Part shown: positions 1 through 56,707 of the stretch, one piece after another | How the letters are laid out: every line of letters begins with the position of its first letter | Position numbering within the stretch: position 1 is the first letter of the stretch | NCBI RefSeq assembly: GCF_002156965.1 | Contig: NZ_CP021324.1 | Span: 158,988 to 222,987, forward strand | Direction: 5' to 3' | From: Candidatus Nitrosomarinus catalina | Lineage (GTDB): Archaea > Thermoproteota > Nitrososphaeria > Nitrososphaerales > Nitrosopumilaceae | DNA length: 64,000 nucleotides | Translations under genes and position numbers: made by a program | The notes under the pieces: generated by a model | What the model saw: only the letters and a program-made list of their open reading frames with translations | What the model was told of the DNA's origin: nothing | The model's database searches: none

Positions 1-146
1 TCGTAATGCTTGCAGTCACTTTTGTTGTCACTCTTATTATTTTAGGAATTTCTACGCGTAGTTTTGGTGGTATTACTGGAGATGTTCTTGGTTCTACAAA
101 TGAATTAACTCGTTTAGCATCATTGATGGTATTTGTATCATTATGA
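1..146 (+). CDS. cobS: Adenosylcobinamide-GDP ribazoletransferase, C-terminal end (partial)
   Basis: Only the last 47 codons lie in the window, read from base 3 and ending at TGA 144-146. The visible tail has a hydrophobic segment followed by GGITGDVLGSTNEL and a second hydrophobic stretch, matching the conserved C-terminal membrane region of CobS. In that family the enzyme joins adenosylcobinamide-GDP to alpha-ribazole in the last step of cobalamin assembly, at the membrane. The stop overlaps the ATG of the next gene, a GTP:adenosylcobinamide-phosphate guanylyltransferase candidate, so the two are surely co-translated. This pairing strengthens both calls. Confidence 0.8.
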   Translation, partial: VMLAVTFVVTLIILGISTRSFGGITGDVLGSTNELTRLASLMVFVSL

Positions 147-51909: not shown

Positions 51910-52459
51910 TTTGTTGTTTGTATCGTCTAATATTCATAAATTCAAAGAAGCTAGAGAAATTTTAGACTCATTTGGAATAACAACTAAATTTTTTAAATTA
52001 ACTTTAGAGGAAATCCAGTCAAACTCAATCAAACAAATTGCAACAAAAAAAGCACAAGATGCATTTTCAAAATGTAATGCCCCTCTAATTATTGAAGACG
52101 ATGGGTTGCATATTGATTCTTTAGATGGATTTCCAGGACCCTATTCTTCTTACGTCCAAAAAACTATTGGTAACAAAGGAATTTTGAATTTGTTAAAAAC
52201 ATCCAGAGATGCAAAATTTATTTCAACCATTACTTATTGTGATAAAAATAATTTGAAATCTTTTGAAGGGAAACTTTATGGAACTATCTCTAAGCTAGAA
52301 AAAGGCCAAGGTTGGGGATTTGACCCAATTTTTATTCCAAAAAATCAAAAGAAGACGTATGGTGAATTAATTGACAAAAATAATATTTCACACAGATACA
52401 AAGCACTGAAAAAATTTTCTAATTGGTATTTGCATACGCTGAAATATAACGATCAATAA
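51893..52459 (+). CDS. rdgB: XTP/dITP pyrophosphatase (RdgB/HAM1)
   Basis: The protein of about 188 aa has FVSSNIHKFKEAREIL, IEDDGLHIDSLDGFPGPYSSY and KGQGWGFDPIFIP, the defining motifs of house-cleaning nucleotide pyrophosphatases. It removes inosine and xanthosine triphosphates from the pool. ATG 51893 is chosen over TTG 51875; even so it overlaps bud32 by 17 bases. Its 3' end overlaps the convergent taw1 gene by 41 bases. The bud32-rdgB linkage is also seen in other archaea. Confidence 0.93.
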   Translation: MHKLSNLLFVSSNIHKFKEAREILDSFGITTKFFKLTLEEIQSNSIKQIATKKAQDAFSKCNAPLIIEDDGLHIDSLDGFPGPYSSYVQKTIGNKGILNLLKTSRDAKFISTITYCDKNNLKSFEGKLYGTISKLEKGQGWGFDPIFIPKNQKKTYGELIDKNNISHRYKALKKFSNWYLHTLKYNDQ

Positions 52460-53450
52460 ATCTCTCATTATTTTGTAAAATTGAGATTCTTGAAACAAGA
52501 CTTTCATCCATAATTGAAAATATTTTACTTTGTTTAGCTATTTCTTCACTGAATTTTTTTACTTCTGGCATTTCTAACATATTTTCATGTTCAAGTCTAT
52601 TAGTTGAACGACCAATATGCATGTAAGATTTTATTTCAATAAAATGTGGACTAGCTTTTCTAAACATATTTGCAAATGCTGGTATCATTTCTTTTTGATC
52701 ATTATAATTTCGAATTAATGTAATTCTTAAAACAGTTCGTGTATCTAGATCTTTTAACATATCTAATGTTCTGTTCCATCTTTCCCATGAATCATCATAT
52801 TTTGGTTTGTTAATTTTTATAAATGATTCATAATCTGCTGCATTTGTAGATAAATACAATTGTGTTGGTAATGCATCTTCATCTTGTAGTTTTTGAATCA
52901 TATCTGGTTCTTGTCCATTTGTTACAAGAAAAATTGATTTTGTAGCTTCTAATGATTTTAGATATTTAATCAATTCCGGTAATTTTGGATACATTGTTGG
53001 TTCTCCAGACAATGAAATTGCATAATGTGTTGGTAACAATGATTCATCTAATCTTTGATTATCATTTCTTGAATCTCCATAAAATCCATCAATCAGTTTT
53101 TTTCTTTCACCCATTAATTTTCTTAAAATTTGTTCTGGTTCTGCAACTTGTTCTGGTTCCATTTTCATTGCATCATAAAATTCCATTGGCCTCCAACAAT
53201 AAACACATCTATTTTCACAGTACATTCCAGCTGGTGAAAATTCCATACATCTATGAGTTAAAATTCCATAAAATTGATGTTTATAGCAACTTCCTTCATG
53301 TTTGAATGATTTTTTTGTCCAATGGCATAATTCAACGGTAGAGTGGTCTGCAACCCCATATTTTGCTTTTTTGAGTTGTGCAGCAATGGCTGGTTTTATT
53401 TGAATGAGGTTTTCTTGATCATTTTCTACTACTTCTCCAGAACAACTCAT
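52419..53450 (-). CDS. taw1: 4-demethylwyosine synthase TYW1/Taw1 (radical SAM)
   Basis: The 343-aa protein has the radical-SAM motif Cys78-x3-Cys82-x2-Cys85 (YCENRCVYCWRPMEF), an upstream Cys set (Cys55, Cys68) that can hold the second cluster, SLSGEPTMYP near residue 150 and FLVTNGQEPD near 174. It builds the tricyclic ring of wyosine at G37 of tRNA-Phe from pyruvate and SAM. It is convergent with rdgB, sharing 41 bases, and monocistronic. Confidence 0.94.
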   Translation of the reverse strand: MSCSGEVVENDQENLIQIKPAIAAQLKKAKYGVADHSTVELCHWTKKSFKHEGSCYKHQFYGILTHRCMEFSPAGMYCENRCVYCWRPMEFYDAMKMEPEQVAEPEQILRKLMGERKKLIDGFYGDSRNDNQRLDESLLPTHYAISLSGEPTMYPKLPELIKYLKSLEATKSIFLVTNGQEPDMIQKLQDEDALPTQLYLSTNAADYESFIKINKPKYDDSWERWNRTLDMLKDLDTRTVLRITLIRNYNDQKEMIPAFANMFRKASPHFIEIKSYMHIGRSTNRLEHENMLEMPEVKKFSEEIAKQSKIFSIMDESLVSRISILQNNERFIDRYISAYANTN

Positions 53451-53568: not shown

Positions 53569-55713
53569 TTGAAAGTTAAATATGCTCTAATGCTTTTGTT
53601 CATGCTTGGCTCCACACTAAGTATTTCGATTTCTCCAGTTTTAGCAGCTACTGAGATTGATATTGATAATGACGGTGTTTTAGATGATGTTGATAATTGT
53701 CCTCGATTACAAGAAGATTATTTTGGTGAAATAGATGGTTGTCCATCTAAAAATCTAAATTGGGTAGATTCTGATTCTGATTCAATTCCTGATAATGTAG
53801 ATCAATGTATTTTATCTCAAGAAACTTTTAATGGATTTGAAGATACAGATGGCTGTCCTGATAATATTTCTTCAGAATTAATTTTTGATCAAGATTCTGA
53901 TTCAATTCCTGATATGCAAGATAATTGCCCATTAGTTTCTGAAACTTTTAATGGATTTGAAGATACAGACGGCTGTCCAGACACACTTGCAATTGATTCT
54001 GATTCTGATGGAGTTCAAGACTTTTTAGATAATTGTCCTTCAACTCTTGAAACTTGGAATGGCTTTGCAGATTTTGATGGGTGTCCTGATGAAATAATTA
54101 ATCCTGATTCTGACTTTGATGGAATTTTAGATGTAAATGATCAATGTGTTAATGAACGTGAAAGAGTAAATGGATTCCAAGACGATGACGGTTGTCCAGA
54201 TATTTCTCCAGATAATATGGCACTTGATACTGATTTAGATGGAATAAGAGATACAATAGATCTTTGCCCATATCAAAAAGAAACTTTTAACAACATTCAA
54301 GATACCGACGGCTGTCCTGATGAACGTTCCACTGAATTATTTATTGATAACTTGATGAAAGATTCAGATGGTGATGGAATTTTAGATGCAATTGATAAAT
54401 GCATTTCATTACCTGAAACTTTTAACGACTTCCAAGATCGTGATGGTTGTCCGGAATTTTATGCTGATTATGATACTGATTTTGATGGAATTTTAGATAG
54501 TGCTGATAATTGTCCATTAGTACAAGAAACTTTTAACAATTTCCAAGACGATGACGGCTGTCCTGATGACGTATTTTCTGAAATTATTATTTATGATTCT
54601 GATTATGATGGTATCTTAGATAATGTAGACAAATGCATTTCATTACCTGAAACTTTTAACAATTTCCAAGACGATGACGGCTGTCCTGACTTTGTTTCAC
54701 AAACTGATTCTGATTATGATTCTATTCTTGATGTCTTTGATAGTTGTAAATATGCAGTAGAAACTTACAACGGATTCCAAGACGATGACGGCTGTCCTGA
54801 TACACTGTATGATCAACAATTCTCAAATGATTCTGATGGCGATGGAATTATAGACAATCTTGACCTTTGTCCTAATTCCCCTGAAAATTATAATCGATTC
54901 TTAGACGATGACGGCTGTCCTGACGATCCAATTATGAGTGATTTTGATCAAGATGGAATTTCTAATTCAGTAGATCTTTGTCCAAGTATATCTGAAACTT
55001 ACAACGGATTCCAAGACGATGACGGCTGTCCAGATTCTGTTGATACAATAGAATTATTCACATATCAATTACCTGATGTTGATAATGATGGTGTTGATGA
55101 TAGATGGGATCAATGTCCAGAAAAATCTGAAAACTATAATGGCTTTGCTGATAATGACGGCTGTCCAGACACAATTGGATTTTCAATTCCTGTTGATGCT
55201 TCTATGATTGACTCTGACGATGATGCAATCCCAGATGGAATAGATCTATGTCCTACAGCACCTGAAAGATACAATGGCTACTTTGATACTGACGGCTGTC
55301 CTGATAATGTTGATGTTAATTCATCAACTGATACTGATTTTGATGGATTTATTGATACATTAGATGTTTGTAAATATGAAAAAGAAGTTTACAATAATTT
55401 TGAAGACGATGACGGCTGTCCAGACACAGTACCAGGTGATTATTCTGCTATTTCCCCGAAATACCAATCATTAGATGTTGATAATGATGGTGTTGATGAT
55501 AGATGGGATCAATGCCTTAATGAACGTGAAAATTTTAATGGATTTTTAGATTTTGACGGCTGTCCGGATGTTTTTGGTGCAGAATCTACTATTGTTCCAA
55601 TAACTGATTCAGATTTAGATGGATATGATGATGAATTTGATTCCTGTCCTTCAGAACCAGAAACTTGGAATAAATACAAAGATACCGACGGCTGTCCAGA
55701 TTCACTTCCTTAA
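53569..55713 (+). CDS. Secreted thrombospondin type 3-like calcium-binding repeat protein
   Basis: The 714-aa protein starts at TTG with a signal peptide (residues 1-26, ending PVLA). The rest is 17 consecutive repeats of about 36-45 residues, each of the form DxDxDGxxDxxDxCPxxxETxNGFQDxDGCPD. Paired Cys and Asp-rich loops match thrombospondin type 3 calcium sites and OmpA-linked adhesins. There is no C-terminal TM or anchor. It is probably a rigid, calcium-stiffened cell-surface or released protein; the partner is unknown. A TATA-like ATTATATAG lies at about 53491-53499. Confidence 0.85.
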   Translation: MKVKYALMLLFMLGSTLSISISPVLAATEIDIDNDGVLDDVDNCPRLQEDYFGEIDGCPSKNLNWVDSDSDSIPDNVDQCILSQETFNGFEDTDGCPDNISSELIFDQDSDSIPDMQDNCPLVSETFNGFEDTDGCPDTLAIDSDSDGVQDFLDNCPSTLETWNGFADFDGCPDEIINPDSDFDGILDVNDQCVNERERVNGFQDDDGCPDISPDNMALDTDLDGIRDTIDLCPYQKETFNNIQDTDGCPDERSTELFIDNLMKDSDGDGILDAIDKCISLPETFNDFQDRDGCPEFYADYDTDFDGILDSADNCPLVQETFNNFQDDDGCPDDVFSEIIIYDSDYDGILDNVDKCISLPETFNNFQDDDGCPDFVSQTDSDYDSILDVFDSCKYAVETYNGFQDDDGCPDTLYDQQFSNDSDGDGIIDNLDLCPNSPENYNRFLDDDGCPDDPIMSDFDQDGISNSVDLCPSISETYNGFQDDDGCPDSVDTIELFTYQLPDVDNDGVDDRWDQCPEKSENYNGFADNDGCPDTIGFSIPVDASMIDSDDDAIPDGIDLCPTAPERYNGYFDTDGCPDNVDVNSSTDTDFDGFIDTLDVCKYEKEVYNNFEDDDGCPDTVPGDYSAISPKYQSLDVDNDGVDDRWDQCLNERENFNGFLDFDGCPDVFGAESTIVPITDSDLDGYDDEFDSCPSEPETWNKYKDTDGCPDSLP
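53650..55710 (+). repeat. 17 tandem coding repeats with conserved GACGGCTGTCC core
   Basis: At DNA level each unit ends with a copy of GACGGCTGTCC or one-base variants, and the middle copies share GACGATGACGGCTGTCCTGA. These stretches use GAC/GGC codons that are rare in the AT-rich surroundings. Identity is highest in units 8-12 (about 54540-55035), pointing to recent duplication or gene conversion within the array. Confidence 0.8.
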
Positions 55714-55744: not shown

Positions 55745-56707
55745 ATGTTACCCAAATTTTCAAGTAAAGCATTTTTGGCTCCAATGGCAGGAGTTAGTGA
55801 TCCTGCACTTAGATTACAATGCAAAAAAATGGGTGCAGGTCTTGTCGTTACAGAATTTACTAGTATTCATAGTATTATTGCAAAAGAAAAACAACTCAAG
55901 GAACATATGCAAAGTATTACAGAATTTATTGAATATTCTGAACAAGAACGACCTTTATCTGTGCAATTATTTGGCTCAGATCTAGATGCATTAGAAAAAG
56001 CTGCTAAAATTGTTGAACCCTATTTTGATATAATTGATTACAATATGGGTTGCCCAGCACCTCATATTACACAACAGATGGCAGGAGGAGCTTTATTACA
56101 ACAATCCAATCTTACCGAACAAATATTCAAAACTCTCGTTAATGCTGTAAAAAAACCTGTAACATTAAAAATTCGTTCAGGAGTTACTGATGCAAGTCGT
56201 TATTTGTTTAAAGATATTGCTGAAATTGCTGAAGATGAAGGAATTGAAATGATTACATTTCATCCACGTACAGTGAATCAAGGATATTCTGGAAATGCAG
56301 ATTGGGAACTAATTAAAGAACTAAAAGAAATTTCAAATATTCCAATTGTTGGAAATGGTGATATTACTACTCCTGAGGATGCAAAAAAAATGATTGATGA
56401 AACAAATTGTGATTATGTTATGGTTGGCCGTGGCGCAATGGGTAATCCATTTTTATTTGAACAAATCAATGATTATCTTAAAACTAATTCTTATCAGGAA
56501 TATTCTTTTAATGATAGATTGGATTCTTTCTTTGACTACCTACATTTAACAAGTAAATACAAAATTAAATTTGCAAATCTTAAGGGTCAAGCAATGCGTT
56601 TCACTAAAGGTATGAAGGGCGGTTCAAAAATTCGTTCAAAAATTACATTTGCAACAAATATTGAAGAATTAGAAAAAATTATGAAAGATGCATATCTGAT
56701 ATCTTAA
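55745..56707 (+). CDS. dus: tRNA-dihydrouridine synthase
   Basis: The 320-aa flavoenzyme has FLAPMAGVSDPALRL, NMGCPAPHITQQMAGGALL near residue 101 with the catalytic Cys, ITFHPRTVNQGYSG near 178, IVGNGDITTPEDA near 200 and VMVGRGAMGNPFLF near 226. It reduces uridines in tRNA D-loops. The C-terminal helical domain binding tRNA is present though short. It starts 31 bases after the repeat protein; co-transcription is possible but functionally unexplained. Confidence 0.92.
   Translation: MLPKFSSKAFLAPMAGVSDPALRLQCKKMGAGLVVTEFTSIHSIIAKEKQLKEHMQSITEFIEYSEQERPLSVQLFGSDLDALEKAAKIVEPYFDIIDYNMGCPAPHITQQMAGGALLQQSNLTEQIFKTLVNAVKKPVTLKIRSGVTDASRYLFKDIAEIAEDEGIEMITFHPRTVNQGYSGNADWELIKELKEISNIPIVGNGDITTPEDAKKMIDETNCDYVMVGRGAMGNPFLFEQINDYLKTNSYQEYSFNDRLDSFFDYLHLTSKYKIKFANLKGQAMRFTKGMKGGSKIRSKITFATNIEELEKIMKDAYLIS

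Follow-up and report, generated by a model that had tools for sequence, protein, structure and literature searches.

Concerted evolution of core DNA in a 17-unit thrombospondin type 3-like repeat gene of a Nitrosopumilus-like archaeon

The DNA cores at the unit ends of a thrombospondin type 3-like (TSP3) repeat gene evolve in concert: they are alike between units within a genome and differ from one genome to the next. The gene lies in the 64,000-nucleotide stretch of archaeal DNA analysed here (the window), and its features are collected in Table 1. The explanation that we regard as best, and as fairly likely when its two parts are taken together, is that the product, in a Nitrosopumilus-like archaeon, would be a strongly acidic, secreted repeat protein of TSP3 type and that its cores would have been homogenised by short-tract conversion. 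The kind of protein is already known, as TSP_3 repeat proteins of ammonia-oxidising archaea, and it is the mode of evolution that is less ordinary. Each unit has two cysteines of which one is homogenised; with this clean internal control, the array is well suited as a natural assay of short-tract recombination in a group of archaea abundant in the sea. The pattern can also tell where the protein accepts exchange from unit to unit, in an array whose length is constrained.

Table 1. Features of the repeat gene and its neighbours (positions in the window)
Feature	Position	Strand	Basis or detail
TSP3-like repeat protein gene, 17 units, 714 aa	53569..55713	+	ORF, TTG start; Pfam TSP_3
Probable signal peptide, residues 1-26, MKVKYALMLLFMLGSTLSISISPVLA	53569..53646	+	translation, judged by eye
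Array of 17 units	53647..55698	+	unit ends DGCP; spacing kept in orthologs
Lengths of units 1-8			59 (incl. signal peptide), 38, 40, 36, 37, 40, 45, 37 aa
Lengths of units 9-17			41, 37, 41, 37, 45, 45, 40, 48, 44 aa
12 exact GACGGCTGTCC cores, span	53968..55697	+	genome-wide exact match
GACGGCTGTCC core starts, first six	53968, 54307, 54553, 54676, 54787, 54910		
GACGGCTGTCC core starts, last six	55021, 55156, 55291, 55411, 55555, 55687		
Divergent neighbour, taw1/TYW1-like radical SAM protein	52419..53450	-	ORF; name by eye; recurs beside relatives' genes
Downstream neighbour, dus-like tRNA dihydrouridine synthase	55745..56707	+	ORF; name by eye; recurs beside relatives' genes

The repeat array and its product

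The first-pass annotation described a 17-unit Asp/Cys protein made of TSP3-like repeats, and both parts of that description hold. In the translation, all 17 units end in DGCP, all are covered by a DxDxD loop (18 matches, two of them overlapping in one unit) and all contain two cysteines, giving 34 Cys in 17 pairs with a 16-residue spacing in 16 units and 14 in unit 1. A Pfam scan returned TSP_3 (PF02412) over 12 stretches at 93.4 bits (gathering cut-off 25, E 6.3e-27), and phmmer matched TSP3 structures, namely the TSP3 wire of COMP (3fby, E 1.2e-5) and the TSP3 of a bacterial OmpA-family protein (5wtl, E 1.2e-4). Asp-rich loops are common to all three, but the Pfam scan found none of the other domains of COMP or the OmpA-family protein in the window protein. 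TSP3 repeats also occur in the myxobacterial cohesion protein MtsC (NCBIfam NF047638), against which the window protein scores 127.6 bits (E 5.8e-37), far below the equivalog cut-off of 350 bits, and it is not assigned to that family.

Beyond a signal-peptide-like start, judged by eye, the protein is repeats throughout. Neither a later hydrophobic segment nor a C-terminal anchor was seen by eye, the chain ending in DGCPDSLP. Acidic residues dominate after residue 26 (156 Asp and 36 Glu, as opposed to 12 Lys and 11 Arg), and the computed pI of this part is 4.05. A structure prediction with 11 sequences gave a poor model (mean pLDDT 46, pTM 0.16). Because each unit carries a calcium-type DxDxD loop and a Cys pair, the array would probably be a calcium- and disulfide-stabilised rod or an extracellular matrix component, and the filament or matrix role put forward in the first-pass annotation is plausible. 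By analogy, an extracellular rod or matrix role appears likeliest because of published reports on thrombospondin-like proteins in ammonia-oxidising archaea (AOA). In Nitrosopumilus cultures exposed to H2O2, according to these reports, two TSP3-type proteins, which can be likened to the window protein on two grounds, repeat type and genus, were 15-40 times as abundant, and a thrombospondin-like extracellular structure is mentioned for alpha AOA (PMC7265257).

Concerted evolution of the core DNA

Searching the genome for the exact core GACGGCTGTCC gave 12 occurrences in the window gene and none elsewhere in the genome, a single contig of 1.36 Mb with no second match to the gene. The looser GAYGGCTGTCC occurs 13 times genome-wide (12 with GAC, one with GAT), always on the + strand and within the gene. 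Over the 17 units, the core codons are GAC 13 times, GGC 13 times and TGT 17 times; in the rest of the gene GAC encodes 22 of 139 Asp and GGC 5 of 30 Gly, and the genome background in 270 sampled ORFs is 18% GAC and 8% GGC. The conserved DNA core proposed earlier is therefore confirmed, but not in its presence in all units, the exact 11-mer being found in 12 of 17.

Other genomes carry other cores. The commonest version is GACGGCTGT in the window gene, GACGGCTGC in L003 and GACGGTTGC in L004, L010, L012 and L013. Residue -1 (D or E) also varies by genome, identical 30-nt tracts sit on different sets of units from genome to genome, and the codons of the flanking taw1 and dus genes show no matching shift. 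A permutation that kept unit columns intact gave an excess homogeneity of 0.122 at the core Gly (z 14.5), 0.177 at the core Cys (z 14.6) and 0.085 at Asp -2; the values were -0.001 at the first Cys of the units (z -0.1), -0.001 at Asp -19 and 0.000 at Asp -16. A weak excess was seen at loop Asp -23 and loop Gly -22, outside the tract, and at Asn -6 (z 2.7-2.9), and the core Asp is without genome-specific homogenisation (z 1.0).

Over most of the unit, in 12 orthologs, the same unit in different genomes is more alike than different units within a genome. In the core this order is reversed, with between-unit identity inside genomes against same-unit identity between genomes standing at 0.71 vs 0.60 for the core Gly, 0.69 vs 0.50 for the core Cys, 0.93 vs 0.72 at -1 and 0.97 vs 0.85 at -3. 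The within-genome value is slightly higher at -4, the two are equal at Asp -2, and the core Asp shows no reversal; a reversal by at most 0.04 is found also at -15, -9, +4 and +5. These 12-ortholog counts include the window copy and leave out three truncated genes (L014-L016), one with an internal stop (L011) and the second, full-length match in G099 (82%).

A symmetric nearest-unit test can be used to compare the tract with the rest of the unit. For the 30-nt tract the nearest unit was in the own gene 1539 times and in the other genome 317 times, the same direction being seen in 12 of 12 genomes, and for the 18-nt core the counts were 1490 and 238; control regions gave 1156 vs 673, 1165 vs 598 and 1158 vs 631. 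This version supersedes an earlier test, which was weakened by the tract being more alike between units anyway. Two paralog families behave in the same way: in fam20 (34 genes, dereplicated to 30) the ratio for the tract is 3.4 vs 1.3-1.8 for controls, and in fam17 it is 5.0 vs 2.4-3.1. The 18 genes of the latter were picked on length and on having 16-18 units, and thus give no evidence for a constant unit number. Control ratios exceed 1 in every family (1.3 to 3.1), and genome pairs share ancestry, which means that the comparisons are not independent. Between 20-unit and 17-unit genes within one genome, the same-genome tract was closer in 1525 cases vs 597, and the control gave 1253 vs 860.

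Sources of the homogenised cores

Recent duplication, an option raised in the first-pass annotation, did not survive comparison with relatives. All 10 complete orthologs (L003, which ends after unit 15, is excluded) have 17 units at 65-88% protein identity, all 17 core Cys are present in each, and 145 of 160 unit spacings are identical to those of the window gene, with at most three differences per ortholog. Given this constancy of unit number and spacing, recent tandem duplication of units is contradicted for the window gene and highly improbable as the maker of the near-identical cores, even though Tandem Repeats Finder detects a partial array at 54397-54837 and blocks of five or six units have been gained in paralog families (the 22- and 26-unit genes of L033). 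Outside the tract, moreover, units are closer to their positional counterparts in other genomes than to their neighbours. Two observations had been named in advance as speaking against the annotation: identical repeat number in relatives was found, and uniform synonymous divergence between units was not. The constant unit number presumably results from selection on length.

Runs of shared sites bear on how units come to resemble each other. The run test counts units that agree with another unit of their own gene against their ortholog, with control donors taken from the other genome. In close pairs, runs of at least 7 shared sites had an own-gene donor in 41 and a control donor in 11 of 332 comparisons; in distant pairs, for runs of at least 9, the figures were 582 and 62 of 1846. 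In close pairs of fam20 they were 31 and 16 of 494 for runs of at least 7, with a modest own-donor excess (55 vs 35) for runs of at least 6. In close pairs 32 events are clear, with lengths from 14 to 61 nt and a median of 36 nt. A first permutation scan for runs, which took no account of regional conservation, is set aside in favour of the control with other-genome donors.

Since multi-site runs have own-gene donors, we infer conversion as the mechanism, and short-tract gene conversion probably offers the best explanation of homogenised cores at a fixed unit number. In non-reciprocal conversions spanning about 20-45 bp, the best-conserved stretch, roughly ETYNNFQDDDGCP, would time and again be replaced by its counterpart from another unit of its own gene. 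Such conversion would homogenise the core DNA inside a genome and leave genomes free to drift to different versions. Tracts of 20-45 bp are shorter than usually assumed for homologous recombination. Gene conversion had been suggested at the outset, and the permutation, offset and symmetric nearest-unit tests and the own-gene donor runs all support it, with fam20 and fam17 alike. Both hallmarks of concerted evolution by gene conversion, greater similarity within than between genomes and multi-site own-gene runs, are present, and the core Asp is the exception to them. In the titles and abstract openings of the open-licence PMC literature, no report of homogenisation of this gene was found.

Codon preference can also be considered, in the form of parallel selection on each unit for translationally preferred codons without recombination. 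In the 12 orthologs, the tract (-4..+2) is rich in C-ending codons of two-fold NNY boxes (407/865, vs 276/2173 outside) and poor in G-ending NNR codons (3/190, vs 55/473 outside). Likely highly expressed genes of this genome favour NNC as well, the fraction being 0.48-0.74 in four amo-cluster genes and 0.485 in a 1525-aa S-layer-like protein (mean 0.20; names by eye, except AmoA). Summed over the same orthologs, GAC encodes 170 of 202 core Asp vs 251 of 1503 other Asp, and at the core it is favoured in all 12. As the sole cause, however, codon preference is unlikely: the GGC of the window gene (13/17) is not a preferred codon (6/130 in the S-layer-like gene), genomes split sharply between GGC and GGT and between TGT and TGC, a split absent from the first Cys and from the flanking genes, residue -1 varies by genome too, and the linked multi-site runs come from own-gene donors. 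Unbiased conversion, for its part, does not explain the GAC of the core Asp; as all 12 orthologs favour this codon there, a degree of site-specific preference persists. Translational preference probably acts alongside conversion, since in NNY use the tract resembles the S-layer-like gene and those of the amo cluster; the window gene's GGC and the TGC of others are not explained by it. We rejected the idea that the C-ending codons stem from GC-biased gene conversion because G-ending NNR codons are rarer in the tract, the opposite shift. A simple codon-context rule finds no support in the background, GAC being 18% of 404 before Gly and 8% of 436 before Glu. The core Gly is rarely GGA, whatever the genome-specific variant. 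Many C-ending codons were also seen in two proteins of 220 and 251 aa with short KDGF/KNGY-like repeats (in the window or the sampled own-genome stretches L080-L093).

Selection acting directly on the DNA or RNA, as a binding, recombination or modification motif, would fit the confinement of the 11-mer to the window gene and the near-universal GAC of the core Asp. It is decidedly unlikely, as the core is GACGGTTGC or GACGGCTGC in other genomes and therefore no fixed motif is kept beyond GACGGY. The earlier suggestion of selection at the nucleic acid level is thus unsupported for this particular sequence, the homogenised core differing by genome, but a GAC preference remains at the core Asp. 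More tentatively than for short-tract conversion itself, one may picture surface rods of fixed length in which micro conversion over 20-45 bp, perhaps with a bias to preferred codons, keeps rewriting the calcium/disulfide cores and acts across tandem paralogs too.

Neighbourhood and relatives

A match to the window gene at E 1e-10 is found in 131 of 250 genomes of the family; the relatives are mostly draft or metagenome assemblies, and those that are close in this gene carry the label Nitrosopumilus sp. A taw1-like and/or dus-like neighbour is present at 67 of 69 archaeal loci, a set that includes three duplicates (L031, L032 and L034 equal L002, L003 and L013). Both lie on the fetched stretch at 18 loci, and neither does at L021 and L028.

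Two or more tandem TSP3 genes are common in other genomes, with recurring classes of about 20 and about 17 units from which some genes depart, for instance those of 26 and 22 units in L033. Higher-order repeats occur in the paralog families, their period being five units in the 17-unit class and six in the 20-unit class, and the 22- and 26-unit genes of L033 each have one extra higher-order block relative to the 17- and 20-unit genes. A similarity of 0.58 links unit 1 of the window gene with the first unit of the 20-unit gene, and values of 0.56-0.61 link its units 13 and 16 with units 5, 10 and 15 of the 17-unit gene; descent from two fused paralogs, one first-type and one later-type, drawn from such resemblances, is suggestive only and was not adopted. 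The L011 ortholog is split into two ORFs by one in-frame TAA, for which decay and assembly error are both possible. G099 has two matches on different contigs, G099:C6:23188-25329 and G099:C7:15827-17782 (82% and 89%), of which the 82% one is full-length.
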